DNA from: Mayamaea pseudoterrestris
Lineage: Eukaryota; Bacillariophyta; Bacillariophyceae; Sellaphorales; Sellaphoraceae
Length of the DNA: 64,000 nucleotides
Assembly: GCA_027923505.1 (NCBI GenBank)
Contig: BROI01000032.1
Location: forward strand, 1-64,000
Reading direction: 5' to 3'
Part shown: in pieces, positions 25,101 to 63,081 of the stretch
Numbering within the stretch: position 1 is the stretch's first letter
Layout: each line of letters opens with the position of its first letter
Made by a program: the position numbers and the translations under genes
The notes under the pieces: generated by a model
What the model was told of the DNA's origin: nothing
Seen by the model: the letters and a program-made list of their open reading frames with translations, nothing else
Databases searched by the model: none

Positions 25101-27129
25101 TGACGTTATTGGTGCTTTGCGTAGCGTCGTAGACGTGGTAGGAGTCGTTGAGGTTGTTTGCTTGCTCTTCAATTGATGAGTGCACTTGTTGCTCTGATTT
25201 ACTTGGCTCGTCTTGTTTGTGGAATGGCAGACCCTTCCCGTCTTCTTGCTTCGTTTGCTCAAGTGTTTCAATGTTTTGAATTAAAGTGCTGAAGTGTCTC
25301 CGTTCTTGCTCGGTTGGAGTCTTGTTGTTGACAAACTCGTCTTCAAAGTCGCTTTCTTCTTCATCACTTGTGCTTGGGTCGCCGCATATGGATGCCCAAC
25401 TGCGTCCTTTGAGATTTGACGATGGAAGATTTGGCTTTGGCTTTGGTGACTCACTCGTTGTGGACAACTTTGTTAAAGGCACCAATTCGACGGCTTGCTT
25501 CTTGTTGGTGGAGCTTGACGTTGGTCTTGCGCGTTTCGTTCGAGTTGTTGGTGGTGCTGGAGGCTGCTCGATTGATGAATCGTCTTCCGATGAATAGTCT
25601 TTAATCTGATGTGGCTGTAGACCGCGCCAGTTGGTTTGTGGGTATAAAGGCGACGGTGTTGGAGCTGCAGGAGTGCGGGTAGGGAGTGCTGGATAAGTTT
25701 CATCAACTAAGTCGGCATGTATGAAGGCAAATTCGCTCCTTGAGTTTGTAGAAGGATAACGGCGGCTTGAAGAGGAACGTTGCGAAGAGGAACGATGCGA
25801 TCGCTGAGTCAACTGAAGGGCTTCGTGTACTGCTGCAAGTCCTTGTTCGAGTAGTAATGGCGCTTGACGAGGCACTTGTTCGCGCATGATGGTTCGCGGG
25901 TGAGGCTCTTGACGATGGTTTTGATGATCAAGTTGGCGCGGTTGCTCTTGTTGATCTCGGCGACGATAATCATTGTCTCTTGGTTGGTCTCTTGCGCGCT
26001 CGTTGTTGCGATTCTGTCGATAACGACGGTCTTCTTGCTGATCATCTTGTGGAAGACGACGATCTTGCTGTCGATTTGAATTGCGAGGACGCTCTCTTGG
26101 TCGTTCTAAACCACGCTCTTGTTGCTCTCGTGCTTCTTCATCTTCCAATTGACGACGAGCTTCGATTGACAAGCGAGTGTTCCATCCTCGAGGACGACGG
26201 TGGGCGTTTTCGACTCGTTCAAAGCAGTCGGCGCTTCGATGATACGGTTGATGGCAAAGGTAGCATTTGAATGATGGTGGATTTCGCGTGTTGTTATAGT
26301 TGGTTTGCGGGCGTTCATTGCGAGTTGGCGGCGCTTGATGCTGACGAGTGTTTTGTTGGCGTGAAGTTTCTTGTTGCGGCGGTTCTGGTTGTGCTGCATA
26401 TAGAACAATCTCGTTGACTCCTTGTATTAAAGCTTCTTCATCTTCTGCTGCGTAAATCGTTTGGTAGATAGTCGACACGACGCCCTCCATTTCGGTCTTG
26501 GTCAGGGCGCGTTGCTTGGTCTTTTGCTCTTGCGCTAAAGCGAGGCAGTATTGAGGCGGCAGCTTGTTCATGAGCGTAGCCATCAGGTCTTCTGCAAGAA
26601 GCGTTTGGTTGAACTTGATGGCTTGCGATTGCATGAGGTCGATGAGGTCTTGAGGGTTTGCTGTTGGTCGTTCGAGCTTGAGATTTTGAATGCTTCGTCG
26701 GTAAAGTGTTGGCGCCATGAACTTGTCTGGAGAAAACTTGATTTCCAATGCGTTGATAACCTTCCAAGCTTCGCCTCCTGGATACTCTGTTGATTCTGCT
26801 CCGACAAGATGGTCGTTCAACTCGGGGAATGGCGACAATGCGATGGAAAGCATTTGCATGAGCGTTTCATTCTGCTTGCGTTCCGCTTGTTTGTTTCGAA
26901 TGATTTGGATTTCGTCTGCTGTTGCGTTAGCTGCGGGATCAGTAATGACTTCATTTTGAGTAGCTGGTAAGTGCTCGGGTCGACTGCCTCTTATAGGACG
27001 GCGGCAGCCTGCAATTCTTGCATGATTCTTGAACTGGTTGAACCATGATGGAAAGGCTTCGATGGTGTTGGTTATCTTTGGCGTTTTGTAGAGCGCATTC
27101 ATAGTGATGTCTTCTTGTTGGTCGGTCAT
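18733..27129 (-). CDS. Copia gag-pol polyprotein, copy 1 (2,798 residues)
   Basis: One open frame. Gag at the N-terminus is followed by a CCHC zinc knuckle (CYLCHQPYHRSADC, about 288). Protease has GDTAAT at about 1131. Integrase has an HHCC finger (HELCGH...CVAC, about 1288-1320), acidic residues in YMDLSS and RMDNAGEN (about 1348 and 1418), and the Glu in SLVEIG. RT has FDISGAFLYG (about 2240) and the catalytic box HIDD in SHIDDLLLSG (about 2326). RNase H has SDSDYAKD and SVTESEMSAG. Two very long linkers, about 840 residues before protease and about 500 between integrase and RT, are acidic and Ser/Thr/Gln-rich; typical Copia polyproteins are near 1,300-1,500 residues. The last ~130 residues come from the LTR. 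Confidence 0.95.
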   Translation of the reverse strand: MTDQQEDITMNALYKTPKITNTIEAFPSWFNQFKNHARIAGCRRPIRGSRPEHLPATQNEVITDPAANATADEIQIIRNKQAERKQNETLMQMLSIALSPFPELNDHLVGAESTEYPGGEAWKVINALEIKFSPDKFMAPTLYRRSIQNLKLERPTANPQDLIDLMQSQAIKFNQTLLAEDLMATLMNKLPPQYCLALAQEQKTKQRALTKTEMEGVVSTIYQTIYAAEDEEALIQGVNEIVLYAAQPEPPQQETSRQQNTRQHQAPPTRNERPQTNYNNTRNPPSFKCYLCHQPYHRSADCFERVENAHRRPRGWNTRLSIEARRQLEDEEAREQQERGLERPRERPRNSNRQQDRRLPQDDQQEDRRYRQNRNNERARDQPRDNDYRRRDQQEQPRQLDHQNHRQEPHPRTIMREQVPRQAPLLLEQGLAAVHEALQLTQRSHRSSSQRSSSSRRYPSTNSRSEFAFIHADLVDETYPALPTRTPAAPTPSPLYPQTNWRGLQPHQIKDYSSEDDSSIEQPPAPPTTRTKRARPTSSSTNKKQAVELVPLTKLSTTSESPKPKPNLPSSNLKGRSWASICGDPSTSDEEESDFEDEFVNNKTPTEQERRHFSTLIQNIETLEQTKQEDGKGLPFHKQDEPSKSEQQVHSSIEEQANNLNDSYHVYDATQSTNNVTTSSDTTEATNLEPTTTNANECDTHERTDNVTTCSADKDSTPTTSPPIELKEEESVEELVATSFAQWRGDWLPKDFLTADELKEVEHLYPTFAPRIPNNIPPQANSSDLPPFHVLQSVLFINPPLYELSDAVKVMFADLQEFFLEHIAMPHAFTHQEAIDSTRDRYYQYTGLRVWDTERVEIIMSNPGDEETNSDDATYDSDAYPSSQSYGSDSFTYEGYQAFLQSWEHRNQAPEHVVSRARYETTIQQIKKDEQDIETNPASAARLCMLERFSQRRFLKDLIFWFEEINEEDEEALFDERLKVVIDHAIAKEVKRRALEGTLRTRSTLEEDLRNVGLEFSKDLTTFNYLDQFPESEREAERQELLDLLAEREARDAREAAEQRARRYQPPARNSNQLQHESPNPFNALRYNVSANAYAVRRNNNNNEFALATIHESITCPTNLDILKHPEIFIGDTAATVDCTPHPEGLFDARQIRNEGITMGNQTVADIQTMAKLRVDACDRFGNPLYQGVLNNVAYAPDCAFNLFSITQRLATGWNLRSGNKKIWLEKENQHSIVFDLLIPTKRGHLYCMYLRRVIPMPLVQAPRNEFAMIAANLLPTRRLSYKQMHELCGHQSPQMTLAIAKHFRWEIHGSSKNKCVACAIGKAKKQPVPQISPRIRATEPGERLYMDLSSFRVMKSKSELGFSSIQPQWQLIVDEATGYKHSAMYRTKGEIVEPTCQMLYYLIQRGITVKYLRMDNAGENQALAKSMKSSAWKLPIEIEWTARDTPQQNSLVEIGFPTLTNRTRAIFTAQNIPPSIRFHLAPSAFEYSTDMDNLAIVEHKSTLATRFKHFYGTESPIIKNLHPYGEAVTVVISGLKSHLAPKGFQGIFVGYSKNHPSRCYRVFNPETNRVHDVKDVTFLHRPYFQPKPPRHEIVTTPLIDVISCSSNYSSLFSPHHHGNLPPPPAKSPDDKNKKKPTFHTKRILTRSTSLIDLTDHDTPEASEASPTNSIQSAPDTFNPTALTIYHPNANAPTSAQEEGTDILNTPQSPRAHTTIADRQANAIQRHIARFSSNHSRGSQSSRSSTRSTRSNPGGLRRTTRETRTPTRFDPTNPATFAAILAALDERFGNRTTLYNACDNGYDSDRSAESEYNKYCESDEQEFHHRPYDDQQDEESVSSNGSIPPLVPRNDDYSSAGDSEAPELWGNEDSFCLPTQDQRYEAAYEPSHERDDDSVSLNDSIPDLVPRADDHSSAGDSQAIELWDINADDDEYEEELTQANGRPAPQPAAPQASIETVITTRVSNVCSPTLQLGKGFNPDDHEDKTSILVTETQDESDESTNQQIDLPPEQLAIMADLLHVPSSTILDDTHTSVHDSPYQQENDHEDQQSFHSADLIPAEIHLNLDETSEPPNEPTNSTFEYFFRDMPSTPSSASIFYDASPIPTLGEFACVGAGIGGGFINTEELHTIKFKQAMGSPERPEWIKAIRKEKDNLIKHGTFQVVSRSMIPPRTKCMTSKWVLKKKSNGTYKARITARGYEQEDGIHYDSNKISSPVASPTSIKIVTTLAIMMGYEPHIFDISGAFLYGTFDEGHECYMHIPEGFQDDYPPNHVWLLKRTLYGTKQAARAFWDQLVKALRQIGFERSVADPCLFYKQDGDRHMHIVSHIDDLLLSGPPDMIEDTKKQLLQHFDGEDGGPMDEYIGCKIERGENYMRWTQPVLLQSLQDEFTIPPPKRQEACVPAQPGTVLPCVKEGDPSALSNNKQTTLRQGLGKLLYLARWSRPETLYAINDLCRAMKTGEEAHEKAMYRAIRYMCATPKRGRLFLPNREYTGPNHVFIISARSDSDYAKDPDKHKSHSGGITYLEGVPVAEVCRLQKHVSLSVTESEMSAGTDVIQDMLHTHAILQSIGLKVQLPMVLEMDNSGAIDIINSWKTGGRTRHVDVRHNFARELKEHGILLVKYIETKKNTADIFTKNLDLSTFNRHARILVGEDEYYKMDSMPEAIALQGKGAGIPVLADEQSNIEKDIDTVSAAPRHGTSRSRPHSYDGESRKSATGPNPTHFTVPEEFTTDNRRKTTTGTSNTGTGVHSECWASTERSRANTTSSEDYTANSVDGREPSRLRDGQYKMTRPVDNIHTYE
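19124..19133 (-). other. Polypurine tract, Copia copy 1
   Basis: AAGGGAAGGG on the minus strand directly abuts the 3' LTR, the expected primer site for plus-strand DNA synthesis. Confidence 0.8.
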
Positions 27130-27137
27130 GGTTGCGA

Positions 27138-29141
27138 TTAGAATGTGTAGTAAAAGTTTTGGCTATTGGTCGGACGTTGATAGCTAACGTTGTTGTCGGC
27201 GAATGGAGATTGACGGTTTGGGGTAGCTAAACGTTGCTGACGTGGCCAATTGAGTTGCTGATGTGACGGAGTTTGAAAACGTGAACGAGCGTGGAACTGC
27301 TGAGCGTGTTGATCGCGACGATGGACACGTTGTTGATTTGTCACTTGTCGATTTCGTTGAGCTTGTAAGTGCAGCTGTCGTTGTTGTTGATTAAGAAGAT
27401 GATTTAAACGAGTTACTTGAGCTTGAAGACTGTTTATATCGCGTGTATGATGAGTTGTAGTGTTGCGCGTGTCGTTGATGCGAGGCTGGACTCGAAGGGT
27501 TGGATTGGAGGTTCGGTTTTGCTGTCGGGTTGGCGTGACGATTCGATTCGCTTGTTGCTGTCTTAAACGCTGCTGGTAAGGACGATTGCTGTTCGTTTCG
27601 TTGCGTCGTTGATTGCGTCTTTGACTAACAGTGATTCGATTGCGTTGAAGATTGATCGAAGCTTGTTGCGTTGTTGATGCGCGCTCTTGACTTGCTTGTC
27701 GCTGTCCGTTTCGTTGTTGAAAGAGTGCTTGACGACGGTCTTCGACGCTTTGAACTGCTGCGATGCGAGGTGCTTCTTGGTAAGTGCTTGAAACGTTCTG
27801 TGAGCGAAGAGTTTGTTGCGATGGTCTCGTGTCTTGGCGATGCGCTTGTCTAACTGGCGCTTGATTTGCTTCTTGTTGGCGAATTGAATTGATTGATCGG
27901 CAAGTATGCGTCGTGCTTGTTGGCGATGTCTCTAATTGCTCGTTGACTGGCGATGAGTTGCTGCTTGGCGAGGGTACGTGTGTTTGCGTATTGGCGATGC
28001 ACACAGAACAAGCGCACGTCGTCTCTGTGTTTATATCTGGTACTTCAGAAAGTCTTTGCAAGTCTTGACGTCTGTTTTCTTCGTCCTTTTGAAGCAGGAA
28101 ACGAGTCTTCTTGAGGAAGTAAAGAGTTACTGGATGCGATAGGTCTTTTGCTTCGAATTCGTCTCGCTCGTTGCGCAAAGTGTCTTCTAGTAGAAGAATC
28201 TCCTTCTCTTCGGGCGTGAAAGGATTGTTCGGTCGGCAAAGATCAAGGCTCTTGTAAAAGTCTGCTCGCTTTTCGTCAAGGAAGATTAATGACTTTGGAG
28301 AAAAGATGAAGGCTTTGAGAAAGGGTACGTTGCTGTCGATGTAACTTGTTTCGACGCCTGATTGTGCGGTTGACTCGGCAACTTTTGCTAATCCTTCTTC
28401 TTTGAATTCTTCCGCAATGTGACTGTAAAACACTTCGTTGTTGGCAAGGTCTTTAAACTGATTGAAGCGCTGCTCACAAGCTTGTTCCGGGTCGATTGGC
28501 TTTGATGAAGGCGGCGGTAGAATGCCTCGAAAGATCCAGGCGAAACGCTTGTCTTCTTCGTCCCAAGTCCAAGGGGTTGGAGGAGAGACGCGCGGGTCGT
28601 AACGATACCAGCCGTATCGAACGTTCGGGTGGTTGTAAACTGCTTTCTCTTCGTCAGTGGCGGGTCGTCCAGTTAGATGCCAGTCTTCGGGGTTGTTTGG
28701 TGAAAGACGACGAAGGCTGTCGCGTGGGTTGTACTCGGTTGGAAGTCGCTCTCGTTCTTGATTGCTTGCAATTTGATCGGCGGCGGTAAGTCGGATTACT
28801 GGGCGGCCTTCTGGAGCGACCGATTGAGGACTTGAAGGGTTGAACTCGTGTAAAGTAATGTTGGTGAAGAGGACGACGACTTGTAGAAGGCGTCGTGAAG
28901 AATTAAAGACTTGGCGGCTTGTGTTGAAGCGGCGAAGGAAACTGTAAAGAAGGCGCGTGACTTGTGGAGTGAGAGGCGACTTGAAAAGAGTGCTCGGCAG
29001 ACTAGGTAAAGTAGTTCTGCTCAACTGATGGAGACTTGAAATCTGCTCGACGACGTTGGCCTTGATCAAACGCTTGATCCGACTCGAGGTAAACTGAAAG
29101 ATAAAGGCAAAAGGGTCGCTTGTAGGCTTGCTCTTGCTCAC
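27138..29141 (-). CDS. Upstream accessory ORF of Copia copy 1 (667 residues)
   Basis: This ORF starts 138 bp inside the 5' LTR and ends 8 bp before the gag-pol ATG. The N-terminal ~100 residues are basic and Ser/Leu-rich; the middle is ordered with many charged residues; a small CACSVC motif follows. The last 250 residues are very rich in Gln, Arg and Asn, suggesting RNA binding (inference). I recognise no gag, envelope or enzyme domain. Reinitiation or a frameshift would be needed to express both ORFs from one RNA; neither is shown by the sequence. Confidence 0.8.
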   Translation of the reverse strand: MSKSKPTSDPFAFIFQFTSSRIKRLIKANVVEQISSLHQLSRTTLPSLPSTLFKSPLTPQVTRLLYSFLRRFNTSRQVFNSSRRLLQVVVLFTNITLHEFNPSSPQSVAPEGRPVIRLTAADQIASNQERERLPTEYNPRDSLRRLSPNNPEDWHLTGRPATDEEKAVYNHPNVRYGWYRYDPRVSPPTPWTWDEEDKRFAWIFRGILPPPSSKPIDPEQACEQRFNQFKDLANNEVFYSHIAEEFKEEGLAKVAESTAQSGVETSYIDSNVPFLKAFIFSPKSLIFLDEKRADFYKSLDLCRPNNPFTPEEKEILLLEDTLRNERDEFEAKDLSHPVTLYFLKKTRFLLQKDEENRRQDLQRLSEVPDINTETTCACSVCIANTQTHVPSPSSNSSPVNEQLETSPTSTTHTCRSINSIRQQEANQAPVRQAHRQDTRPSQQTLRSQNVSSTYQEAPRIAAVQSVEDRRQALFQQRNGQRQASQERASTTQQASINLQRNRITVSQRRNQRRNETNSNRPYQQRLRQQQANRIVTPTRQQNRTSNPTLRVQPRINDTRNTTTHHTRDINSLQAQVTRLNHLLNQQQRQLHLQAQRNRQVTNQQRVHRRDQHAQQFHARSRFQTPSHQQLNWPRQQRLATPNRQSPFADNNVSYQRPTNSQNFYYTF

Positions 29142-29279
29142 TCAATACTCCGCTTGTTGCTGCAGAGCTTTGGAAATTCGAGGTTGACAGAAAGGGCTTG
29201 AAGAAATCCGCGTCCGGTTTTGTTCAATGCTTTGGAAACTTGGTAAAAAGATCTTGGTTCAATCGGCAAGTAATTACTT

Positions 29280-29822
29280 TGCTTGAGATCCAAGATGAAG
29301 GTCCGTACGGAAGTAGGGAGAAAAGACGGTTTAAACGCTAAAAGACTGGGGAAACTTTGAATCTATTGTTAGTAGATCCTCTAGAATGAGACGAAAGTGA
29401 AGCGGTCGATTTCGCATCCAAGAGTGGCTTCTCATTCATACGTATGTATATTGTCTACCGGTCGTGTCATTTTGTACTGGCCATCCCGTAGGCGGGATGG
29501 CTCTCGTCCGTCTACAGAATTGGCAGTATAGTCTTCACTGCTGGTAGTGTTTGCACGGCTTCGCTCTGTAGAGGCCCAACATTCGCTGTGTACGCCGGTT
29601 CCGGTATTCGATGTACCTGTGGTAGTCTTTCTACGGTTGTCAGTCGTGAATTCTTCGGGTACGGTGAAGTGTGTAGGGTTTGGGCCAGTGGCTGACTTTC
29701 TACTCTCGCCATCGTAGGAGTGTGGTCGTGAACGGGATGTTCCGTGTCTTGGTGCCGCTGAGACCGTGTCGATGTCCTTTTCAATGTTGCTTTGTTCGTC
29801 GGCCAAAACGGGGATCCCAGCA
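29280..29822 (-). repeat. 5' LTR of Copia copy 1
   Basis: 543 bp; carries A at the variable site where the 3' LTR has G. Its outer edge touches the LTR of copy 2 at 29823 with no base between. Confidence 0.95.
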
Positions 29823-48099: not shown

Positions 48100-51000
48100 A
48101 GTATCACTTGCTACTTGAGGTGCACCACTAGCAGATCCAACAAGTTGTTGGATCTGCTCAGTCCTGTGGCATACATGGTGATGGATACTGAGGTGCAACT
48201 GACCAACTTATGGCCCATCATGACAACAAACATGATATGAAAGATATAGGAGGGCTCACCAGGCAAGGCTGGTGATCCCTGCAGCCAAAATGGGAGCAGG
48301 GCTGGCACATTCAACCAGTTGTTGAATGTGCGGAGTTTCAGGGCATAGTGATGGCTTCCTCACCTAAATGGACAAGTCTATGAGTCCCATGCACTGTTCC
48401 AGTCCATGTTTGTTGTATTGTGGGGTCTGCAGGCCATTTTGGAGGTCTCACTTGCCACTTGAGGTGCATTGCTAGCAGATCCAACAAGTTGTTGAATCTG
48501 CTCAGTCTCACCTAGGCGTACATGGTGATGGATACTATGGTGCAACTGACCCACTTATGGCCCATCATGACAACAAACATGATATGAAAGATATGGGAGG
48601 GCTCACCAGGCAAGGCTGGTGATCCAAAAAGGGAGCTGTGCTGGCACATTCAACCAGTTGTTGAATGTGCGGAGTTTCAGGGGCGTAGTGATGGCTTCCA
48701 TACCCCTAAGAACAAGTCTATGCGTCCCATTCACTGTTCTAGTACATGTTTGTTGTATTGTGGGTCTGCAGGCCATTTTGAAAGTCTCACTTGCCACTTG
48801 AGGTGCTATCTGCTCAGTCTCACCTTGGCGTACATGGTGATGGATACTATGGTGCAACTGACCCACTTATGGCCCATCATGACAACAAACATGATATGAA
48901 AGATATAGGAGGGCTCACCAGGCAAGGCTGGTGATCCCTGCAGCCAAAATGGGAGCAGGGCTGGCACATTCAACCAGTTGTTGAATGTGCAGAGTTTCAG
49001 GGCATAGTGATGGCTTCCTCACCTAAATGGACAAGTCTATGAGTCCCATGCACTGTTCCAGTCCATGTTTGTTGTATTGTGGGGTCTGCAGGCCATTTTG
49101 GAGGTCTCACTTGCCACTTGAGGTGCATTGCTAGCAGATCCAACAAAGTTGTTGAATCTGCTCAGTCTCACCATGGTGTACATGGTGATGGATACTATGG
49201 TGCAACTGACCCACTTATGGCCCATCATGACAACAAACATGATATGAAAGATATTGGGAGGGCTCAGCAGGCAATGCTGATGATCTCTGCAGCCAAAAAG
49301 GGAGCTGTGCTGGCACATTCAACCAGTTGTTGAATGTGCCGAGTCTCAGGGCATAGTGATGGCTTCCACACCCAAATGGACAAGTCTTTGAGTCCCATTC
49401 ACTGTTCAAGTCCATGTTTGTTGTATTGTGGGGTCTGCAGGCCATTTTGGAAGTCTCACTTGCCACTTGAGGTGCATTGCTAGCAGATCCAACAAAGTTG
49501 TTGAATCTGCTCAGTCTCACCATGGTGTACATGGTGATGGATACTATGGTGCAACTGACCCACTTATGGCCCATCATGACAACAAACATGATATGAAAGA
49601 TATGGGAGGGCTCAGCAGGCAATGCTGATGATCTCTGCAGCCAAAAAGAGCAGGGCTGGCACATTCAACCAGTTGTTGAATGTGCGGGGTTTCAGGGCAT
49701 AGTGATGGCTTCCACACCCAAATGGACAAGTCTTTGAGTCCCATTCACTGTTAAAGTCCATGTTTGTTGTATTATGGGGTCTGCAGGCCATTTTGGAAGT
49801 CTCACTTGCCACTTGAGGTGCACCGCTGGCAGATCCAACAAGTTGTTGGATCTGCTCAGTCTCACCATTGCACAGGTGGCAATGGATACTGAGGTGCAAC
49901 TGACCCACTTATGGCCCATCATGACAACAAACATGATATGAAAGATATGGGAGGGCTGTCCAAGGCCCAAGGAGGGCTGTGCTGGCACATTCAACCAGTT
50001 AATGAATGTGCGGAGTTTCAGGGCATAGTGATGGTTCTACACCCCAAAGAACAAGTCCATGAGTCCCATTCACTGTTCCAGTCCATGTTTGTTGTATTAT
50101 GGGGTCTGCAGGCCATTTTTAAAGTCTCACTTGCCACTTGAGGTGCATTGCTGGCAGATACAACAAGTTGTTGAATCTGCTCAGTCTCACCATGGCGTAC
50201 ATGGTGATGGATACTATGGTGCAACTGACCCACTTGTGGCCCATCATGACAAAAAACAGGTTATGAAAGATATTGGGAGGGCTTAGCAGGCAATGCTGAT
50301 GATTCCTGCAGCCAAAAAGGGAGCAGGGCTGGCACACATTCAACCAGTTGTTAAATGTGCCGAGTTTCAGGGCATAGTGATGGCTTCCACACCCCAAAGA
50401 ACAAGTCTATGAGTCCCATTCACTGTTCAAGTCCATGTTTGTTGTATTATGGGGTCTGCAGGCCATTTTGGAAGTCTCACTTGCCACTTGAGGTGCACCG
50501 CTGGCAGATCCAACAAGTTGTTGAATCTGCTCAGTCTCACCATGGCGTACATGGTGATGGATACTATTGTGAAACTCACCCACCTATGGCCCATCATGAC
50601 AACAAACATGATATGAAAGATATTGGAGGGCTCACCAGGCAATGCTGGTGATCCCTGCAGCCAAAAAGGGAGCAGGGCTGGCACATTCAACCAGTTGTTG
50701 AATGTGCGGAGTCTCAGGGCATAGTGATGGCTTCCACACCCCAAAGAACAAGTCTATGAGTCCCATTCACTATTCAAGTCCATGTTTGTTGTATTATGGG
50801 GTCTGCAGCCCATTTTGGAAGTCTCACTTGCCATTTGAGGTGCACCACTGGCAGATCCAACAAGTTGTTGAATCTGCTCAGTCTCACCATGGCGTACATG
50901 GTGATGGATACTATGGTGAAACTGACCCACTTATGGCCCATCATGACAACAAACATGATATGAAAGATATTGGGAGGGCTCAGCAGGCAATGCTGATGAT

Positions 51001-54000
51001 CCCTGCAGCCACAAAGGGAGCAGGGCTGGCACATTCAACCAGTTGTTGAATGTGCTGAGTCTCAGGGCATAGTGATGGCTTCCACACCAAAAAAAACAAG
51101 TCTATGAGTCCCATGCACTGTTAAAGTCCATGTTTATTGTATTATGGGGTCTGGAGGCCATTTTGGAAGTCTCACTTGCCACTTGAGGTGCACCGCTGGC
51201 AGATCCAACAAGTTGTTGGATCTGCTCAGTTTCACCTTGGCGTACATGGTGATGGATACTGAGGTGCAACTGACCCACTTATGGCCCATCATGACAACAA
51301 ACATGATATGAAAGATATTGGAGGGCTCAGCAGGCAATGCTGGTGATCCCTGCAGCCAAAAAGGGAGCAGGGCTGGCACATTCAACCAGTTGTTGAATGT
51401 GCGGAGTCTCAGGGCATAGTGATGGCCTCCACACCCAAAAGAACAAGTCTATGAGTCCCATTCTCTGTTCAAGTCCATGTTTGTTGTATTATGGGGTTTG
51501 CAGGCCATTTTAGAAGTCTCACTTGCCACTTGAGGTGCACCACTGGCAGATCCAACAAGTTGTTGAATCTGCTCAGTCTCACCATGGTGTACATGGTGAT
51601 GGATACTATGGTGCAACTGACCCACTTATGGCCCATCATGACAATAGACATGATATGAAAGATATTGGAGGGCTCAGCAGGCAATGCTGATGATCTCTGC
51701 AGCCAAAAAGAGCAGGGCTGGCACATTCAACCAGTTGTTGAAAGTGCGGGGTTTCAGGGCACAGTGATGGCTTCCACACCCAAATGGACAAGTCTTTGAG
51801 TCCCATTCACTGTTAAAGTCCATGTTTGTTGTATTATGGGGTCTGCAGGCCATTTTGGAAGTCTCACTTGCCACTTGAGGTGCACCGCTGGCAGATCCAA
51901 CAAGTTGTTGGATCTGCTCAGTCTCACCATTGCACAGGTGGCAATGGATACTGAGGTGCAACTGACCCACTTATGGCCCATCATGACAACAAACATGATA
52001 TGAAAGATATGGGAGGGCTCACCAGGCAAGGCTGGTGATCCCTGCAGCCAAAAAGGGAGCTGTGCTGGCACATTCAACCAGTTAATGAATGTGCGGAGTT
52101 TCAGGGCATAGTGATGGTTCTACACCCCAAAGAACAAGTCCATGAGTCCCATTCACTGTTCCAGTCCATGTTTGTTGTATTATGGGGTCTGCAGGCCATT
52201 TTTAAAGTCTCACTTGCCACTTGAGGTGCATTGCTGGCAGATACAACAAGTTGTTGAATCTGCTCAGTCTCACCATGGCGTACATGGTGATGGATACTAT
52301 GGTGCAACTGACCCACTTGTGGCCCATCATGACAAAAAACAGGTTATGAAAGATATTGGGAGGGCTTAGCAGGCAATGCTGATGATTCCTGCAGCCAAAA
52401 AGGGAGCAGGGCTGGCACACATTCAACCAGTTGTTAAATGTGCCGAGTTTCAGGGCATAGTGATGGCTTCCACACCCCAAAGAACAAGTCTATGAGTCCC
52501 ATTCACTGTTCAAGTCCATGTTTGTTGTATTATGGGGTCTGCAGGCCAATTTGGAAGTCTCACTTGCCAATTGAGGTGCACCGCTGGCAGATACAACAAG
52601 TTGTTGAATCTGCTCAGTCTCACCATGGCGTACATGGTGATGGATACTATTGTGAAACTCACCCACCTATGGCCCATCATGACAACAAACATGATATGAA
52701 AGATATTGGAGGGCTCACCAGGCAATGCTGGTGATCCCTGCAGCCAAAAAGGGAGCAGGGCTGGCACATTCAACTAGTTGTTGAATGTGCGGAGTCTCAG
52801 GGCATAGTGATGGCTTCCACACCCCAAAGAACAAGTCTATGAGTCCCATTCACTGTTCCAGTCCATGTTTGTTGTATTATGGGGTTGCAGGCCATTTGGA
52901 AGTCTCACTTGCCACTTGAGGTGCACCGCTGGCAGATCCAACAAGTTGTTGAATCTGCTCAGTCTCACCATGGCGTACATGGTGATGGATACTATGGTGC
53001 AACTGACCCACTTATGGCCCATCATGACAACAAACATGATATGAAAGATATTGGAGGGCTCAGCAGGCAATGCTGGTGATCCCTGCAGCCAAAAAGGGAG
53101 CAGGGCTGGCACATTCTACCAGTTGTTGAATGTGCGGAGTCTCAGGGCATAGTGATGGCTTCCACACCCCAAAGAACAAGTCTATGAGTCCCATTCACTG
53201 TTCCAGTCCATGTTGGTTGTATAGTGGGGTCTGCAGGCCATTTTGGAAGTCTCACTTGCCACTTGAGGTGCATTGCTACCAGATCCAACAAGTTGTTGAA
53301 TCTGCTCAGTCTCACCATGGCGTACATGGTGATAGATACTATGGTGCAACTGACCCACTTATGGCCCATCATGACAACAAACATGATATGAAAGATATTG
53401 GAGGGCTCAGCAGGCAATGCTGGTGATCCCTGCAGCCAAAAAGGGAGCAGGGCTGGCACATTTAACCAGTTGTTGAATGTGCGGAGTCTCAGGGCATAGT
53501 GATGGCTTCCACACCCCAAAGAACAAGTATATGAGTCCCATTCACTGTTCCAGTCCATGTTTGTTGTATTTTTGGGTATGCAGGCCATTTTGGAAGTCTC
53601 ACTTGCCACTTGAGGTGCATTGCTAGCAGATCCAACAAGTTGTTGAATCTGCTCAGTCTCACCATGGCATACATGGTGATGGATACTATGGTGCAACTGA
53701 CCAACCTATGGCCCATCATGACAATAACAATGATATGAAAGATATGGGAGGGCTCATCAGGCAATGCTGGTGATCCCTGCAGCCAAAAAGGGAGCAGGGT
53801 TGGCACATTCAACCAGTTGTTGAATGTGCCGATTCTTAGGGCATAGTGATGGCTTCCACACCCCAAAGAACAAGTCTATGAGTCCCATTCACTGTTTCAG
53901 TCCATGTTTGTTGTATTGTTGGATTGTTGGGTCTGCAGGCCATTTTGAAAGTCTCACTTGCCACTTGAGGTGCACCGCTGGCAGATTTAACAAGTTGTTG

Positions 54001-54410
54001 GATCTGCTCAGTCTCACCATTGCACAGGTGGCAATAGATACTGAGGTGCAACTGACCAACCTATGGCCCATCATGACAATAAACATGATATGAAAGATAT
54101 TGGAGGGCTCAGCAGGCAATGCTGATGATCTCTGCAGCCAAAAAGGGAGCAGGGCTGGCACATTCAACCAGTTGTTCAATGTGCAGAGTCTAAGGGCATA
54201 GTGATGGCTTCCACACCCAAATGGACAAGTCTTTGAGTCCCATTCACTGTTCAAGTCCATGTTTGTTGTATGGTGGGGTGTGGAGGCCATTTTGGAAGTC
54301 TCACTTGCCACTTGAGGTGCACCGCTGGCAGATTCAATTAGTTGTTTAATCTGCTCAGTCTCACAATGGCATATATGGTGATGGATGCTGAGGTGAAACT
54401 GACCAAGTTG
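48100..54410. repeat. Tandem array of ~19 units of a ~345-bp hairpin-rich repeat
   Basis: Marker sequences such as CTTGAGGTGCA and ATGGCCCATCATGAC recur about every 345 bp from 48114 to 54311 (19 occurrences). Each unit carries several inverted repeats: CAGATCCAACAAGTTGTTGG with its continuation (first at 48132-48156, 12-bp arms around one base), GCACATTCAAC/GTTGAATGTGC (first at 48305-48331, 11-bp arms, 5-nt loop) and usually CACCATG/CATGGTG. Unit length is not a multiple of three and frames shift from unit to unit, so the long open frames are not a repeated protein. Edges are diverged: the first unit reads TATCACTTGCTACTTGAGG, and the last fades at about 54405. Confidence 0.92.
49612..52480. 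repeat. Six-unit higher-order duplication inside the array
   Basis: The stretch at about 49612-50397 recurs at about 51674-52480, nearly identical, at an offset of 2,062 bp, rising to 2,083 bp after a ~20-bp indel near 49960. The offset equals six basic units. This points to unequal exchange or segmental duplication within the array. Confidence 0.8.
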
Positions 54411-55152
54411 TAGTATCTTGCGCAAATGGGAGACAAACGCCACTAACAATCACGACTGGGTCCAATGGGTGGACTGGATGGGCTGTGGCAAATGCACATG
54501 CACTCTGAATTTAAATGACCTTTTGTGGTGGAGAGAGCCAAGTGATGCAGTAATGAAAGCATGTAGTTAGAGCAGCAGTTGAATGCACCCGGCGTCGCAA
54601 ATGCCAAGATCCCGAATTGGCGTCACGGGATTCGTGACGCGCCGCGCCAGCGCGCGCACAAGTTGGAATAGCCAAGCTAATGTCCCAGGAAAGAGCCACC
54701 GCATAATGACACCAAAAATGACCTCAATCGTGGTTCTAGGTGGCGAAACTAATGTTAGGCCGCTTGTATGATCATTGAGGCCTTGACATGAGCCACCATA
54801 TAGAGCGAAGCGGAGATGTAGAGTAATCGTACAGGTAAGTAAGTTATACGCGATAAGAAGTAATTCTAGATGTAGAATATTATATAGTGAAAGCAAACCA
54901 CGTCGTCGAACTTTGTGATTTGTAAAAACAAAATGACAAAGGCAAGACGAGTGGTATACATTTTGTGGAGTTGCAATTGTATAACTGAAAAGCATGTAGG
55001 GGGCTCAAAATAGCGATGCGCGTACTGTTACGAGTCTGTACAGACAGCATCGACTTCTTCTGGAAAGTTGCCTTCCAAGCTGATAGCTTGAACACACTTT
55101 TCAGCATCATAACTCGTCAAGAGCTGTGAACGTAATCGACAACTAGAAGTTT
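54411..55152. other. Spacer after the satellite array
   Basis: No convincing gene. One perfect hairpin lies at 54620-54640 (GCGTCACG/CGTGACGC, 5-nt loop), followed by a GC-rich patch. Open frames on both strands have no protein-like features I trust. Confidence 0.5.
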
Positions 55153-55878
55153 TTAATCATCGTAGGACGGCCGCCGAATATGCCCCTTGTCCCCCTTTTG
55201 CCAAACAGCCTGCCGTCTTGTCGGTTTGATGCGCTTGTCCAGCAATCCCGAAGTAGGTGCTGCTACCCGGAGCTCGAGCTGCTGCAACTCATCTCGACCA
55301 AGGGCTGGCATGAACTCAAGAACGCGTTCGCGGCGCTCGTCGGTTGAAAGGTACTTGGCCAGCTTGTTCGATGGCAGCCACAGGGAGCAATCCCCATCGT
55401 CGATGCTTTCATTAATGTTGTTTACATCATTATAGTCAACGACTTGAGTTTCCGTATGGGACCAATCCAGCGTGAGCGCGCATGGACCATGGCAGCTTGG
55501 ATTATCGCCAATCGTGACGGCGTATTCCCTTTGCTCCACTGCGTCGGCAAAGCGGATCCGTTGGCGCAAATGCTTGTTCTCTGGCACTGGAAACTGCGGA
55601 ACGTAAAGCCATGTGCCGGAAGATTCTGGATCAAAAGCAGAACAAAGGCTTGCTTCGTCGGGACAAGAACGCTTATCGTATGCAGTCTCTAGTGCCTTTT
55701 CGTCGTCGCTACTCATTGTCAAGGCCAGCTCGTCACCTCCAAAGCAAGGCATGGAGATGGAAGGTCGTCGCTTTGGTACCTTGAGCAACAAAACTTCTCG
55801 ATCACTCTTCTCCCAACGGTCGCAAGAATTGAGCAATGTGTTCAAGCTAGTGGTGCTGCCATCGAATGATCGATTCAT
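55153..55878 (-). CDS. Small protein with a GDNPSC-type motif, unknown function
   Basis: 241 residues from ATG at 55878. The middle contains RIRFADAVEQREY (107-119) followed by the turn TIGDNPSC (122-129) and ALTLDW. From memory, this 'x-F-x-x-V-x-x-R-x-Y...GDNPxC...L-x-W' pattern recurs in many unnamed stramenopile proteins. The N-terminal third is Ser-rich with Arg clusters (KRRPSISMP). The C-terminal region is charged and helical and ends with a basic tail. There is no signal peptide or membrane segment. Function unknown. Confidence 0.8.
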   Translation of the reverse strand: MNRSFDGSTTSLNTLLNSCDRWEKSDREVLLLKVPKRRPSISMPCFGGDELALTMSSDDEKALETAYDKRSCPDEASLCSAFDPESSGTWLYVPQFPVPENKHLRQRIRFADAVEQREYAVTIGDNPSCHGPCALTLDWSHTETQVVDYNDVNNINESIDDGDCSLWLPSNKLAKYLSTDERRERVLEFMPALGRDELQQLELRVAAPTSGLLDKRIKPTRRQAVWQKGDKGHIRRPSYDD

Positions 55879-55924
55879 GGTTGGCCAGTGCGTTTGAGCA
55901 AGTTTGAGCTGTGGGCATGTAGAG

Positions 55925-56300
55925 CTAATGATTGTATGACAATATTGAGATCACAGTTGCACAGATGTCGTAGAGTATGAGGAAACCGAGGTGCTGGCGT
56001 GCTTCTTCTGTGGCTTCGTCCGAGGGCAGTCGAGCTTTCGGCCTGACCAGATCTGAGTCTCCAAAGCGGTTTTTACTCGGGCTATCGAAGCCGAAGGAAG
56101 TGCCTACGCCACGTGCTGAATCGTTGTTCGTTCCGACAGTCACTCAGAAGTTGATTCGATTGACAGTCGGCATATGTAATATCTTGTTCCACGGTGAGCC
56201 TATTTCTTCCATCGCGACCCAGCCCCAAGCGTGCTGAATAAAAGATTTTCCGTGTTGATGACTCATTCGCTTCCACCTCCTGCTTCGACTTATCGACCAC
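55925..56300 (-). CDS. Doubtful small gene, two overlapping frames
   Basis: Two short frames overlap: 56300-56082 begins MVDKSKQEVEANESS, and 56143-55925 contains GFDSPSKNRFGDSDLV and ends ICATVISILSYNH. Both have plausible composition, and a small intron or frameshift could link them, but no clean GT-AG pair was found. It may be real or chance. Confidence 0.25.
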
Positions 56301-56593
56301 CTGCGACCAAGACTAGTTTATTTGCGCCCCAAGGTCGCGGTTACATGTGGCAAGCAGTGTCAATGCTTTTGATATGGACGTATTGTTCCGAAGAAACGAC
56401 AATGAATGCTGGTCGTCAATGCCAGTTGAGATTGATTCACCGCGACCACCTTTGGTCGTCCTGCGACCCGAATCACTTCTGCGCTTCGATGATGCTTTTC
56501 AAAGTGACTGATGAGTCATTTCATGAAATGCAGCTGATGCACGAGCACAAATATTGATGACGTCATTGATGAATGGCGCGTGACTCGTGACTC

Positions 56594-59500
56594 GTGAAAC
56601 TGCATCTCATCCATTGCGACGCTACGAGCGTCTCGCCTTTCGTCCATTCGCTCATTCGCTCAAAAGAAGCAATGAAGGGCCCGACGAGTTGCCATCAAGA
56701 CCATGGTGACATGTACTTGGGCACAAGCAGCAGCATGTTTATCAAGCTTCTCGTCTGTTACGTGCTTTGTGGCGCCATTCACGAACTGACGCATGTAGCG
56801 ACAGCAACCATTTTCCACGGGTGGAGCCTCGTCATTCCATCCAACGATATTTCCTTTTGGTGTCACGTTTTGCTTGGCCGACAGACGCGACTCTTGCAAG
56901 ATGAAGATTTACATTATCTGGTTCGACATGCAGGATGGATGATGAGTGTGTTGCTTGCCTTGTTTCTCATGAATCATTGTCGGACCTCGGCATTATCCGG
57001 CATGATGCGAATCGCATCTGCCTTGACGGCTCTCGAGGCCATTTCCACCGACTTGCTTGGTTTCCCAACTATTCCATTTGCTCCGATTGGTACCAATACT
57101 TTACTTTGCGGTAATTTCGGCATTATTGTCTTGCACCAAGCCTGGTTAGCGCACAATGGAAAGGCCGCCTTGGACGTGCTGGAAAAGATGATTGAAGTCA
57201 CCATGATGCGAGGCGCGCAGTCGGGCGGAGTTGTAACGCTTGACAAGGACGGCCGCTTCACGAGGACTCGCGTTGTGAACCAGAAACGAACTGCACTGAG
57301 TCGCAAACTCCGAAAGAAATTGGAGGCAAACGTTAACTTTGCCAATCTACCAATCACTGGAACGGCCTTGAGCGGACACACGCGATTTGCTACAAGCTCC
57401 AAGGCAACCATGGATGGAACGCACCCGCAGCAATGGTCCCCCAAGACGATGCGCAAGATATTTATTGAGAATGAAAGTGGAGGTAGCTTTGTCGATACTT
57501 TGGTCGAGAATTTCGTCACGCACAATGGCGATTTTGAATTCTATACTCTTGGAGGGAAAACCTGCGATTTGCACATTGTGCAGCAGTTTCTGAGTCATGT
57601 TACAGAGGTTCAGACGCCCGCGGTGGTTGATTCGTGCGCCGTTGCGGGTATGCTGGACGTTTTACGTACAAAGGGGTGCTTTGGGCTGTCGATTCGCGGC
57701 GTCTTGGCCTTGAACATGCCGAATAGTGCTATGACAATCACCAGCTTTCCCACCTACAAGCAACTCGATGCGATTGCCTCTGTCTTTGAGCACGTACTAC
57801 TAGAAATGTTAAAAACAACGTTGTTTCAGCGTCTTGAAGAGGAGAAAGGTTTGCGACACTCGTACGCGCTTCGGGTTGTTTCCAAACTAAAAGTTCGCTA
57901 CGACGAACTCTTTGGGAATCAAGGGATCGACAAGTACGTTACATCTATTGACGACGAAGAGCAAAGCGACTCGCTGCTTACTTTTGCGTTAAAGGTAATG
58001 AATTCCTTTCTTGACGGGGACTTGTTTTTCGCCATGAAGACGTTTCTGCATCACGCCAAGGGATCTTTTGGGCTTTGTTTTACGTCGTCGCTGGATGCCA
58101 AACACCAAGTCTGCCTAGCCGCTCGTGGACAAACCATGTCAGTGGCATTTTACCCTTCCAAAGGACTTATCTGTTACGGTTCTGAGCAAGCAGCCGTCAA
58201 AGCTGGCATGTCATTTGACTTTCCTGGTCGAACGGCCGACAGTTTAGGTCGATCGCGAGGAGAAATTGACAATGAAGCACTGCGACTAGATTTGGATGAC
58301 CTTGGCGGCGAAGTTATACTACTGGATTGGAGCAAACCCAAAGCGGCTCATCCTGTATCGTTTCCAAGTCGCAATTTGGAGGTGTACGAGCTAATGAATG
58401 GCGCAGTTTCGGCTGTGATATACCAGGAGAGCAAAGGCTCAACGACCAATAAGATTTTGTACCACCGACTCACGCGACTATCTAATAATCCTTTCATTCG
58501 GCCATTGGAGGAAGAGCCCAAAGATCTCATTCTGGATGACATTATGGACATTCCAAATGCTTTGCAAACTATCCAAGATGACTTTGGGGTTGAAAAGGCA
58601 TCCTCGAGTCTTAATCGTTTGACTGCATTTCACCTTTCGCGCTGCCTTCGCAAGAGATTGGAAGCGCGCATTGCTGGAACGCTGCCCACGCAGTCTATCG
58701 ATATTTTGTTGACAGGATGTGAAGTCTCATTGTGGGTGGCGGAGCAATTTGCGAGTGACCTTAAAAATTCTTTTCCTGGATTAATAATCCATGCGATCAG
58801 CAGCAACAAAATCTTAGGGTCCTTTGGACAGGAGATCGCTATACCGGCCACTGGATTTCCGTACTCGCGGAAAACATATTCATTACATGATTCGATTGTT
58901 ATCATTGTGAGCCACAGGTACGAACAATAACGCGCGACGCCGTTGCTTGAAACTCATTGCGTTAAGTATCTCATGTCGTTGCTCGATATTCATGATGATT
59001 ATGAGATTAGTGGCGGTACCTTTGCTCCCTTAGCCTGCTCCAATCTACTGCAAAGTGCGACCAGGAACCTGTTTGTAGTTACCTCGGAATGGGACACGCA
59101 AATTTCGAAACAGCTTCGTGCGATGGACGCTATGGACGGGAAGATCGCCCAGCTGTGCGCGAGTCGAATATTTTCCACTGAAGTGGGGATGCGTCCGGCG
59201 GAACCATGCTCCATCTCAGTCGCAGCTACGCATCAATTACTGACTAACTTGCTTCAGTATTTAGCCGTCGTCATTCTCAGCGAAGAGCGATTTCGCAAAT
59301 TTACGCAAGCCATAATCACAGAATATGACATTCAGATTCTTGAGAAGTGTAACCAAATGAATATCCAGGCCCTAGAAGACATTGTTGGGGCGGATCGCTT
59401 CCAGCAGTCGATGGATTACGAAGAGGATCGAGCTGAACTAGCGCTGCGCATCGTTGGCGACCTGTGGGCTAATCACATACTTGAAAATGCAAAGGCATAC

Positions 59501-61290
59501 ATCATGTCTTTCATATACATTTTCGCTACCGTCATTAGCGGGTATCCATTGTTTTTTGGTATTGCAGTGGCTGCTGGTTTAGATAGGACGAGTCGGTTCG
59601 CATTTTTAAGTAAGTTTTGTTCTGCTATCGCAAACGTTTGTTAGGATACGACACTAATTGCATTTGCTTTTTGGAAATTCAAAGTCCGAGTTCTTGATGC
59701 GGCGACCTACTTTTGGATACCTCAGATCAACATCACGATTATTCGGTTGGTAGAAGGACGCAATGTGCGACACCGAATGGTCGGACGTACCGTAGTAATA
59801 GGTGACATTCCTTGGGTTGCGCAGAGTGCCGAGGCATTTCTCAGCAAGGCAAGTACAAAAAGCAAATTAAAAATGAGACAGTGCTTTCAACTCACATCGC
59901 CTTCTCTCGATAGATATTTGCCGTCTCGTACTCGATCGCTGGACTTAACGTCCACAGCGGAAATCCTACCGACCATTTTGTTCATCGCCACACTCATCGT
60001 GTCGTACGAGGATCGCTGGTTGTTTGCGGACGACCTGACGGACGACTGTCGGCTCTGTCGACGGCTGAAGCTGCTGTTTGCCTATCTGTTAATCAAGCCA
60101 GCAGCATTCAGAGTTTAGGTGGCACCTGCGAAAGCATCACTATTGGCCATAATCCTTTCACGCTTCCATTGACTGAGGCAGCCATTTTCTTGAAACGAAA
60201 ACGTCCCCTCTTCTTGTGCGAGCGCATGCTCATTGAAGGTGATGCTAAGGCGGAGAAAACAGCAGAGTCGTCGACGTCGGGAGAGTCTCGCTCTCAGCCA
60301 CTTGAACGAGGATTTTTCGCGGCAGTAAGGCGGCTTTTGCGCGGCAAGAAGTCTTCTGACGTTTTAAACAGATCCCTATCAAAGAGCATGCATGATCCAA
60401 GCATCCGCCCTCGTGTGCACAAGTATCGATCTGCTGCGGCCCTCATTGGCGCGTACACGAGTCCTGTTGAAGGTGATGAAGAAAAGACAGCTGAAGATTT
60501 ATCCGAAGAAAAGGGAGAAGAAGAATTATTGCTCGACCTTGTCGTCGAAGAGGCCATTTTGGAAAAGAAGTTTGGGGACAAGACTCGCAAGCTGTTCGCA
60601 GCTTTTGAAGTGGACAAGGATGGTTTACTGAAGGAAGATGAGTTTGTTGATGGTGCACGAAAGCTGAACACTGACATGAACGAGGAGGAATTGAGGGCTT
60701 TGTTTCGATTATATGACGCAGATGGCGTGGGTGTGGATTATCATGAGTTCCTCGATCTGATCAAGAGCTCTCGAATTGAATCTGATTTGAAGCTTCCGCC
60801 GAGCAATAGGGACGCACGTGGGGTTATTAAAATCGAGCCAAGTCGAGAAAAATACTTTGGAGAAATCGTCCGAAAACTCAACATGGGCGCGGGCGACCTT
60901 GACTTTCGTGCTGCAAGGAATCAGCACTTTGCGCAGGAATTGTACGAATCTCGAATCGCTTCGCTGCAGCGATTTGTGGCCATGACGGTCATGTTCCACC
61001 AAATTGGGAAGCGAGTTGAGCGATTCTTTGCCAAAATAAGTTTTGGTCTCTTGGCATACCGGATGGATCGCACGCACAGCATTATGCGCATTGCTACAAC
61101 TGCATCCCCCGTCAGTGGAGCTGATGTCAAGCAGCAGATGCGTCACTTGCAGCTGCTGAAGAGAATTCAGCATTCGGTCCATGTTATTTCGGTAGCGTAT
61201 GCGAACTACAAGTCTAGGAAAGAGCTACCAAAGCCTCACAGCACCGAGCAGGACTTTGTGGCGCGCGAAGAAGTAAAAACTGCTGGTTAA
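56594..61290 (+). CDS. M50-like membrane metalloprotease + GlmS-like amidotransferase/SIS + EF-hand-like fusion protein
   Basis: Exons 56594-58917, 59011-59609, 59685-59848 and 59914-61290 (introns 93, 75 and 65 bp; the last is GC-AG) encode 1,487 residues. Residues 48-170 form membrane helices with HELTH (63-67), an AGWMMSVLLALFL helix and STDLLGF, like M50 site-2 proteases. A class-II glutamine amidotransferase follows: C172 in LLCGNFG, RGAQSGG, R264 in GHTRFAT, HNG (310-312) and D346, matching the GlmS catalytic set. A SIS region has TGCEVSLWVAE and SHSGGT, completed exactly across intron 1 (S775). Another membrane segment lies at about 937-965. EF-hand-like loops lie at about 1255-1312; both are non-canonical (Glu at position 1; one residue short). 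Glutamine-dependent amino-sugar chemistry is the family role; the fused arrangement is what is odd. Met27 or Met48 are alternative starts. Confidence 0.88.
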
Positions 61291-61533
61291 AGCACAGCCA
61301 GGTTACACAAAGGTTGGGATTGGGAGTTTTGCCAGTCAATCGCTTGGCTGCTACAAGTGCAAGCTCAGATATATGATCAACTATAAACACACTAACTGAT
61401 AATTGATTAGTATTGGAACATGGATGACACATTATTGTTTTTTAAGCGAGAAAGAGCATAGCTAAAGCTACTGACGTCATCGATCCTTGGTCACGCATCG
61501 ATCCGTTTCCCACTCACTTTTTCGTTCGCCACC

Positions 61534-62700
61534 ATGAGACTTCCCTGGATCGTCGCGGCTCTAGCAGTGCCTCCACCACCGGAGCAGCATGTAATAACAA
61601 CTTTTCGTACGTCGTCTGACATGCAAGCAGCAACGAATGTACACTCGCTGCACCAGGCATCTTCAGTTTGGCTCGCCGCATCAACACCCGCCTCGCCACC
61701 CTCCAAGGACGATGTCATTTTGCTGCGACAAGCATTCGCCGAGTTCTATGGCGTCGATCGCGATCTTGCCAAAAGTGAACAGCTTCTCAGTGATGCTATC
61801 GGCCGATGGCAGAACCAACCTCCGGATGAGCTTGCCGGCCTCTACCGAGTGAGAGGTGATTGCTACATGCTACAAGCAGATGCATTGAAAGCAGCAAGCG
61901 ACTACGATCAAGCCGTCAAGTTACTACAAGAACCTGGTGGAGACAAGGCTGATCCATCGGAGCTACAAGCATCGCTACTGGGAAGGGCGCGTGCCGTTCG
62001 GTCACAGCGTGGTATCAGCGCTTTTCAAGCAAAGCAAAGCGCCAATGATTACAAACTGGCTCTGCAATTATCTAGTCGAGAAGAATGGGAAACAGAGCAG
62101 GAGCTTATTGAAGATGGGGCTACCAGAAACCCGTACGCTGCATGGGAATGGGGAAGCATGCTGCGTCAATCGGGTCAGCTAAAGGAGGCAGCAACCGCGC
62201 ACCTTTTGGCGTCACAGGCGTTTGACGAGGTGGGAGATAAAGCTCGCTCAGTCATGAGTCTCATTGATGCCGGCGTTGACCTCGCTGCTGCTGAGCAAAT
62301 AGATGAAGCCGAGTCTTTGTTGGAGAAGGCTGTGCAAAAGACAAAAGGTGTTGAAGGCCGTGACACGGCGTTGTTGCAGCGCGTCATTGCCAAGGAAGGC
62401 GAAGGTCGCATGGCATTGGCAGCCACATTGTGGAACGATGGCAATCGAGCAAAAGCAGAACAGATACTAGGTGATGCATGCATTCGCATGGAGCAGCTCC
62501 AGGCCGATGCTGCTCGACGTGTTCCTGCCAAAAGTGACGATGTTGCAGCGCCCAAGGCACTGGCGTATAGCATTGATGACTCGATTCGACCACTGGAATA
62601 TTCATGTCCCAGGTTTAAGAATGAGGCCTTTCTCTCCGAGCAGCTTGGATGGCCCGAGAGCTTGCAAAAGAAGGTGCGAAAACTACAACTACTCCAATAG
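61534..62700 (+). CDS. TPR-like repeat protein
   Basis: 388 residues from ATG at 61534, no intron. After a short hydrophobic start (MRLPWIVAALAV) that could be part of a signal peptide, helical pairs typical of tetratricopeptide repeats run from about 65 to 330: DLAKSEQLLSDAIGRW, LYRVRGDCYMLQADAL, AAWEWGSMLRQSGQL and AEQIDEAESLLEKAV. The end has YSCPRFKNEAFLSEQLGW. TPRs act as protein-binding scaffolds; the partner is unknown. Plastid or secretory targeting is possible, but no clear A-F site is seen. It follows the fusion gene on the same strand about 240 bp downstream. Confidence 0.8.
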   Translation: MRLPWIVAALAVPPPPEQHVITTFRTSSDMQAATNVHSLHQASSVWLAASTPASPPSKDDVILLRQAFAEFYGVDRDLAKSEQLLSDAIGRWQNQPPDELAGLYRVRGDCYMLQADALKAASDYDQAVKLLQEPGGDKADPSELQASLLGRARAVRSQRGISAFQAKQSANDYKLALQLSSREEWETEQELIEDGATRNPYAAWEWGSMLRQSGQLKEAATAHLLASQAFDEVGDKARSVMSLIDAGVDLAAAEQIDEAESLLEKAVQKTKGVEGRDTALLQRVIAKEGEGRMALAATLWNDGNRAKAEQILGDACIRMEQLQADAARRVPAKSDDVAAPKALAYSIDDSIRPLEYSCPRFKNEAFLSEQLGWPESLQKKVRKLQLLQ

Positions 62701-63081
62701 CGGCCGATTGAGCATTACAAATTTTCGTGCACGCTAGTAGATAGAGCCAAGATAGATCAATCTTGTTTACAGCATATTCTTACTATTCGTGCATTCATGG
62801 ATATTGCGCGAAGATGAGATGCGGCAAGCATTCATGCCTTTGTTGCGCTGCGGCTCAGCATGTGAGCATGTTGCGCAGTTTTAGTTGATAGTGATTCTTG
62901 CCGACTGGTTTCGGCACTGCTGGTAATTTTAGTTTCAGGAAGCTGCCTACTATGGACATAAACAACTACTCCTAGCATAATTAAGAATTTATGAATTACA
63001 TTCACCTTCCCATTAGCATCATACTGTGATGAACTGCAATCAAGAGAGCCAAGCCAAGCTTGACATAATATAGTCACTTCG
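62701..63081. other. Convergent intergenic spacer
   Basis: 3' sides of the TPR gene and the gene ending at 63082. A/T-rich, no credible gene or repeat. Confidence 0.5.

Follow-up and report, generated by a model that had tools for sequence, protein, structure and literature searches.

The diatom Mayamaea pseudoterrestris carries, within the first 64 kb of contig C32 of its 30.6-Mb genome (the stretch analysed here, referred to as the window), a gene whose predicted product joins in a single reading frame a membrane segment that is probably related to the site-2 proteases (S2P; peptidase family M50) and a glutamine amidotransferase half that is, as judged by profile comparison, related to GlmS. 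The chemistry of class II amidotransferases depends on the free alpha-amino group of a Cys at the N-terminus, and in the present model the predicted nucleophile, C172, is internal; the protein would thus either have to be cut there to work or have given up the glutamine-splitting reaction. An in-frame fusion of an M50-like segment with a GlmS-type class II amidotransferase had been proposed in a preliminary description of the locus, and it is supported by profiles, tblastn and hhalign; the residues on which that description was built, HELTH (63-67), D153, C172 in the context LLCGNFG, R264, N311, G312 and D346, all lie at those positions in one frame. Residue numbers start, as in that description, at a GTG 26 codons upstream of the first in-frame ATG (Met27, at 56672); counted from that ATG, C172 is residue 146. 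All of this comes from a single gene in a single genome, and no description of such a fusion was found in the literature searched, a statement that reaches no further than that search.

The match of the amidotransferase half to GlmS is taken as beyond chance because the NCBIfam GlmS model, the sole NCBIfam match, is found at E=4.4e-4, because the protein outscores shuffled sequences with a GlmS profile and because its frame ranks first of the 626 frames of the window with such a profile (E=9.8e-7). With a profile of 22 GlmS sequences the model protein reaches 21.4 bits and the best control 4.8 bits, the controls being 1000 shuffles and the reversed protein (342 reported, none as high); an earlier seven-sequence profile gave 12.4 bits against 4.1 bits for the best of 400 shuffled sequences. 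In hhalign, residues 172-281 fall on GlmS residues 2-90 (probability 95.2, E=2.7e-8), with Cys on Cys and HTRFAT on HTRWAT. A tblastn search of plasmids (E up to 10) matched 21 records, with a best E of 0.02; among the 20 matches listed, 16 carry a glmS or glucosamine 6-phosphate synthetase annotation and four have none there, and 14 of the 20 alignments start exactly at C172. Pfam gave no GATase family with the full protein or its pieces. A sequence search of the PDB returned nothing for residues 27-1138, and with the amidotransferase part it gave three weak matches (E 0.42 to 1.2), all of them unrelated.

The claim that all GlmS-type catalytic residues are kept holds by profile alignment for C172 and R264, whereas N311, G312 and D346 are present and their equivalence is judged by eye. 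HNG and the Asp follow Cys and HTRFAT in the GlmS order, again as assigned by eye; MAFFT alignments with GlmS go wrong past HTRFAT and were not relied on beyond it. A second GlmS-like stretch, at about residues 469-523 with GSFGLCF, follows in order (hhalign probability 10%, P=0.003). An ordinary, separate GlmS is encoded elsewhere in the genome, on contig C29, and the present gene therefore need not supply glucosamine-6-phosphate.

For the membrane half, the first M50 profiles gave no signal, and it was tblastn that pointed to one S2P family. When the 145 residues before C172 were compared with 72,556 plasmid records (E up to 10), 46 records were matched, all of them from Sinorhizobium and all with a query coverage of 80% or more. 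The 20 matches listed span query residues 17-145 at 25-26% identity; two are gene-annotated, both as site-2 protease family protein, and the other 18 lie where the records carry no annotation. One Sinorhizobium protein that was examined is a Peptidase_M50 (Pfam E=6.2e-25) with CBS domains. Among the controls, the reversed query matched one record, and a query shuffled in blocks that kept HELTH matched two, at 45-54% coverage and none annotated as M50; the same N-terminal piece found nothing in phages. A profile of nine CBS-type S2P cores gives the segment 18.5 bits against 10.6 bits for the best block shuffle and 12.3 bits for the best shuffle with HELTH fixed, and none of the 985 block shuffles reported (of 1000) or the 1000 HELTH-fixed shuffles scores as high. 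This profile includes relatives of the tblastn match, and a hold-out profile of five sequences omits the four nearest. By hhalign the segment matches S2P with a probability of 86 (P=5.3e-6), or 55 (P=1.2e-4) with the hold-out, and over the 626 window frames its frame comes first (E=0.0012; E=0.049 with the hold-out). The M50 resemblance proposed at first is borne out by the profile of CBS-type S2P cores and not by Pfam or by two small M50 profiles. NCBIfam has no match to 56672-57160, and the locus is not among the matches when the genome is searched with PF02163, PF13398 and NF001484; PF13398 has three weak matches in the genome, whose frames we take, by eye, to be M3-type oligopeptidases.

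HELTH alone is no evidence of kinship because HExxH also turns up in shuffled sequences (207 of 20000 shuffles of residues 27-171; 366 of 5000 of the whole protein). A 19-residue hydropathy scan (cut 1.3) finds segments 40-71 and 108-127 before C172 and a further one, 162-180, that spans C172 itself, and not the three clear membrane helices ahead of the nucleophile that had been described; windows containing D153 peak at 1.17. Given the alignment, the S2P-like core appears to keep HExxH and to have lost the third metal ligand at the homologous place. The stretch FPTIPFAPIGTN aligns ungapped with FNxIPxxPxDGG and an AG aligns with AGP, with Trp115 for the Pro of AGP, Pro158 for the Asn of FNxxP and Gly166 for the Asp of PxDGG. 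D153, once suggested as third ligand, aligns two columns past a conserved Asn that belongs to an earlier stretch, and residues 154-171 contain no Asp. Provided that the alignment is correct, D153 cannot then be the third ligand, the Asp column being filled by Gly166. With that Asp missing the gene is not classed as an M50 peptidase, and the proposal that its own metalloprotease site makes the cut before C172 is weakened. C172 lies six residues beyond Gly166, and the amidotransferase thus starts where the M50 motif ends. In SpoIVFB, we take Asp137 to be the Asp of the DGG motif. The zinc-coordinating residues of SpoIVFB are H43, H47 and D137 (PMC11486902).

The open frame 56594-58930 runs uninterrupted for 778 codons, and the membrane and amidotransferase parts share one exon with no intron between them. 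Splicing out 58918-59010, 59610-59684 and 59849-59913 gives a single predicted protein with its stop at 61290. Introns 1 and 2 are GT-AG; intron 1 was picked, with GlmS in mind, for restoring the SIS-like SHSGGT, and an alternative set by hand (58907-58966) likewise preserves the frame. Intron 3 is GC-AG with donor GCAAGT, a frame-keeping boundary with a consensus-like donor. Translation of the membrane part is supported because it resembles S2P and has the highest synonymous codon score among its six frames. The exon 1 protein has no second match in the genome (E up to 0.01), and the gene is single-copy in this diatom. Rfam gave no match within 55000-63000. An out-of-frame ATG at 56703 (plus strand), in the context ACCATGG, opens a 28-codon frame ending in CFVAPFTN, an end that presumably recalls the diatom plastid-targeting motif.

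Beyond the amidotransferase comes the SHSGGT stretch, whose resemblance to SQSGET in the first GlmS SIS domain is weak (hhalign probability 8%, P=0.0044). In a shuffle test 2 of the 356 sequences reported (of 1001) score at least as high as the SIS-like stretch, and the spliced stretch alone, at 4.1 bits, ties with the best of 400 shuffled sequences. A second SIS domain was not detected by hhalign or profile comparison with GlmS, Pfam found no SIS family in the full protein or its pieces, and the C-terminal LAKSVTVE-like motif of GlmS is absent from the model by eye. The NCBIfam GlmS score, 18.8 bits against a cut-off of 381, is far under the curated threshold. By these comparisons the protein is not a complete GlmS, though its amidotransferase begins like one. 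Towards the C-terminus, the first EF-hand-like loop, EVDKDGLLKEDE, fits a relaxed EF pattern, whereas the strict pattern matches none, and the second loop is, by eye, one residue short. EF-hand_7 scores 23 bits against a Pfam cut-off of 30, and all four Pfam EF-hand matches lie under their curated cut-offs; the calcium control suggested earlier thus retains one near-canonical loop and no score above threshold. The remaining Pfam matches are all weak and concern unrelated families (E 0.03 to 0.22).

Features of the gene in the window (all on the plus strand; residues numbered from the upstream GTG)
Feature	Coordinates	Strand	Basis or remark
Whole gene model	56672..61290	+	exons 56672-58917, 59011-59609, 59685-59848 and 59914-61290; 1461 aa plus stop
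S2P/M50-like membrane segment, residues 48-169	56735..57100	+	tblastn, profile, hhalign, frame rank
HELTH, residues 63-67	56780..56794	+	aligns with HExGH of S2P proteins
FPTIPFAPIGTNT, residues 157-169	57062..57100	+	ungapped on FNxIPxxPxDGGR; Asp column is Gly166
GlmS-type class II amidotransferase domain with insertion	57107..58336	+	residues 172-581, end approximate
C172, predicted nucleophile	57107..57109	+	hhalign, on the GlmS Cys; LLCGNFG context
HTRFAT, residues 262-267, with R264	57377..57394	+	aligned to GlmS HTRWAT
HNG, residues 310-312	57521..57529	+	present; equivalence to GlmS HNG by eye, left unaligned by MAFFT
D346	57629..57631	+	present; equivalence to GlmS Asp123 by eye
SIS-like stretch, residues ~703-791; SHSGGT 773-778 across intron 1	58700..59059	+	hhalign, weak
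Second hydrophobic stretch, residues 937-966	59495..59584	+	hydropathy, strongly hydrophobic
EF-hand-like pair, loops 1261-1272 and 1297-1307	60607..60747	+	Pfam EF-hand_7 E=1e-4, pattern

The reading that we favour, whilst giving it somewhat less than an even chance, is that of a GlmS-derived membrane amidotransferase that sits behind a degenerate S2P-like core and needs a cut before C172. The N-terminal part probably descends, on the sequence statistics, from a site-2 protease core, and is probably not an ordinary metalloprotease because the third metal ligand is lost; it may serve as a membrane anchor and propeptide instead. The GlmS-type amidotransferase would come next with almost no linker and with its catalytic residues apparently kept. 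Since class II chemistry needs an N-terminal Cys, the predicted glutaminase would work only if cut between L171 and C172. Such a cut would most likely be autocatalytic, in the manner of PurF, or be made by another protease, either being likelier than cleavage by the protein's own metalloprotease site because the S2P site is degenerate. The cut enzyme would be left held in the membrane by the second hydrophobic stretch, and the SIS-like part would accept the ammonia. Class II amidotransferases are known without a propeptide or with a short, self-removing one; a membrane protease-like leader that ends six residues before the nucleophile would, if cut, be an unusual route to an active N-terminus. 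The gene may otherwise be a case of an N-terminal nucleophile (Ntn) domain retained for a different role, or of an S2P core that has taken on a structural one. AtGPRAT2 exposes Cys87 upon propeptide removal, and eukaryotic GPRATs are all said to bear a short propeptide that is autocatalytically cleaved to give the N-terminal Cys (PMC7056826).

Several results weigh against this reading. We know of no precedent for autocatalysis across a membrane segment, and the SIS part is weak. The membrane part has a composition-sensitive codon score of -0.003; this falls short of the 5th percentile for coding segments (0.058) but still exceeds the 95th percentile for non-coding frames (-0.024). Pfam shows no M50 in the full protein or its pieces, and two small M50 profiles score the segment no better than shuffles: with a profile of three M50B-type sequences, the segment is equalled or exceeded by 18 of 497 block shuffles reported (of 500) and by 80 of 500 with HELTH fixed, and with one of four M50 proteins from the same genome by 77 of 497 and 260 of 500. 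The E-values of the Sinorhizobium matches listed are only 1 to 4, and the hold-out S2P profile, though it puts the segment above every shuffle, does so narrowly, at 14.2 bits against 13.8 for the best HELTH-fixed shuffle. The silence of Pfam, the shuffle-level scores of the small profiles, the tblastn E-values and the ease with which shuffling residues 27-171 yields HExxH would all suit a membrane part that is no S2P relative, being a hydrophobic leader with a chance HExxH. That view seems improbable to us in the face of the nine-sequence profile score, which exceeds every shuffle reported, of the first rank of the segment's frame and of control queries that drew no annotated M50. The low composition-sensitive score would equally suit translation from a start inside the frame, for which Met116 and Met138 offer in-frame ATG codons; the amidotransferase would then carry a short, ordinary propeptide, with the upstream part not, or not always, in the protein. 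Similarity to S2P across residues 48-169 and the synonymous codon score, best of six frames in that upstream part, make this most improbable.

What becomes of the cysteine may also be envisaged in other ways. An active M50-like intramembrane metalloprotease, as first proposed, could cut before C172, either within its own chain or in a sister molecule, and thereby activate or release the amidotransferase. HELTH is kept at the right place of the S2P-like alignment, C172 comes just six residues past the third-motif position, and in SpoIVFB the substrate pro-sequence is described as threading next to the HExxH motif (PMC11486902); with Gly166, Pro158 and Trp115 at the PxDGG, FNxxP and AGP positions, D153 off the ligand column and no Asp in 154-171, we nonetheless consider an active protease distinctly unlikely. 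Alternatively there may be no cut, the Ntn domain being a pseudo-enzyme that might, for instance, sense glutamine or a sugar phosphate and be coupled to a calcium-binding part. An internal Cys in the model, an S2P site and a SIS part that both look degenerate and the presence of the EF-hand-like pair are in keeping with this, whereas retention of C172, R264, N311, G312 and D346 together would be unexpected in a domain freed from catalysis, and we regard a pseudo-enzyme as unlikely. A long shot is that the protein is a membrane-bound zymogen, in which the Asp-less protease site clasps the beginning of the amidotransferase, and Asn168 or the thiol of C172 stands in as metal ligand. Under this lock, akin to a cysteine switch, glutamine hydrolysis at the membrane would start upon release or cutting at L171/C172, and this would be a new way of making the N-terminal nucleophile of an Ntn amidotransferase. 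Structure predictions reached a predicted local distance difference test score (pLDDT) of 34.5 from the single sequence and 43.2 with 17 GlmS rows, the latter built on one MAFFT alignment that errs after HTRFAT; both are too low for use.

Among the closest known systems is GlmS/GFAT, with which the protein shares an N-terminal amidotransferase stretch that contains the Cys and HTRxAT and, as judged by eye, also HNG and the Asp, followed by an SxSGxT SIS-like motif. Unlike GlmS/GFAT, it has its Cys internal behind a membrane segment and a long insertion before GSFGLC, no second SIS domain is recognised, the LAKSVTVE-like C-terminal motif is lacking by eye, and a hydrophobic stretch and an EF-hand-like pair are added. 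With the CBS-domain site-2 proteases (PF02163; for example one from Sinorhizobium meliloti) it has HExxH, AG and FxxIPxxP in common, in the same order and at similar spacing, and it departs from them in having Gly166 for the PxDGG Asp, AGW for AGP and FP for FN, no CBS domains by Pfam and an amidotransferase directly after the core. As with the PurF-type GPRATs, for example AtGPRAT2 (Cys87), a class II amidotransferase is made with residues ahead of its nucleophile Cys (PMC7056826). There, however, the protein belongs to the chloroplast and its propeptide is short and removes itself (PMC7056826), in contrast to the membrane segment found here, and Pfam finds no phosphoribosyltransferase match in the present protein. 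Scans of viral contigs with queries from the window and of genome contigs with the exon 1 protein gave no homologue; both scans are narrow, as the diatom's own ordinary GlmS also drew no match from the genome contigs.

Elsewhere in the window, a tandem array of a 347-base unit (48808-54404; 16.2 copies, 91% matches) ends about 2.3 kb before the gene. Further upstream, between about 18550 and 41100, a block of about 11.2 kb is tandemly repeated at an offset of 11242 bases; when 23 blocks of 500 bases (18501 to 29501) were compared, 20 were identical, one matched at 0.998 and the two end blocks were partial. The repeated block carries a 2808-residue open frame with a copia-type reverse transcriptase (RVT_2), and represents either recent copies or an assembly effect. 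The genome has ten matches to silicon transporters, six of which are strong, and these mark the host as a diatom. On another contig of the genome, three silicon-transporter units lie in a row at C1:2970661-2974680, each reported in a 1445-residue open frame, which suggests that they form a triple fusion.

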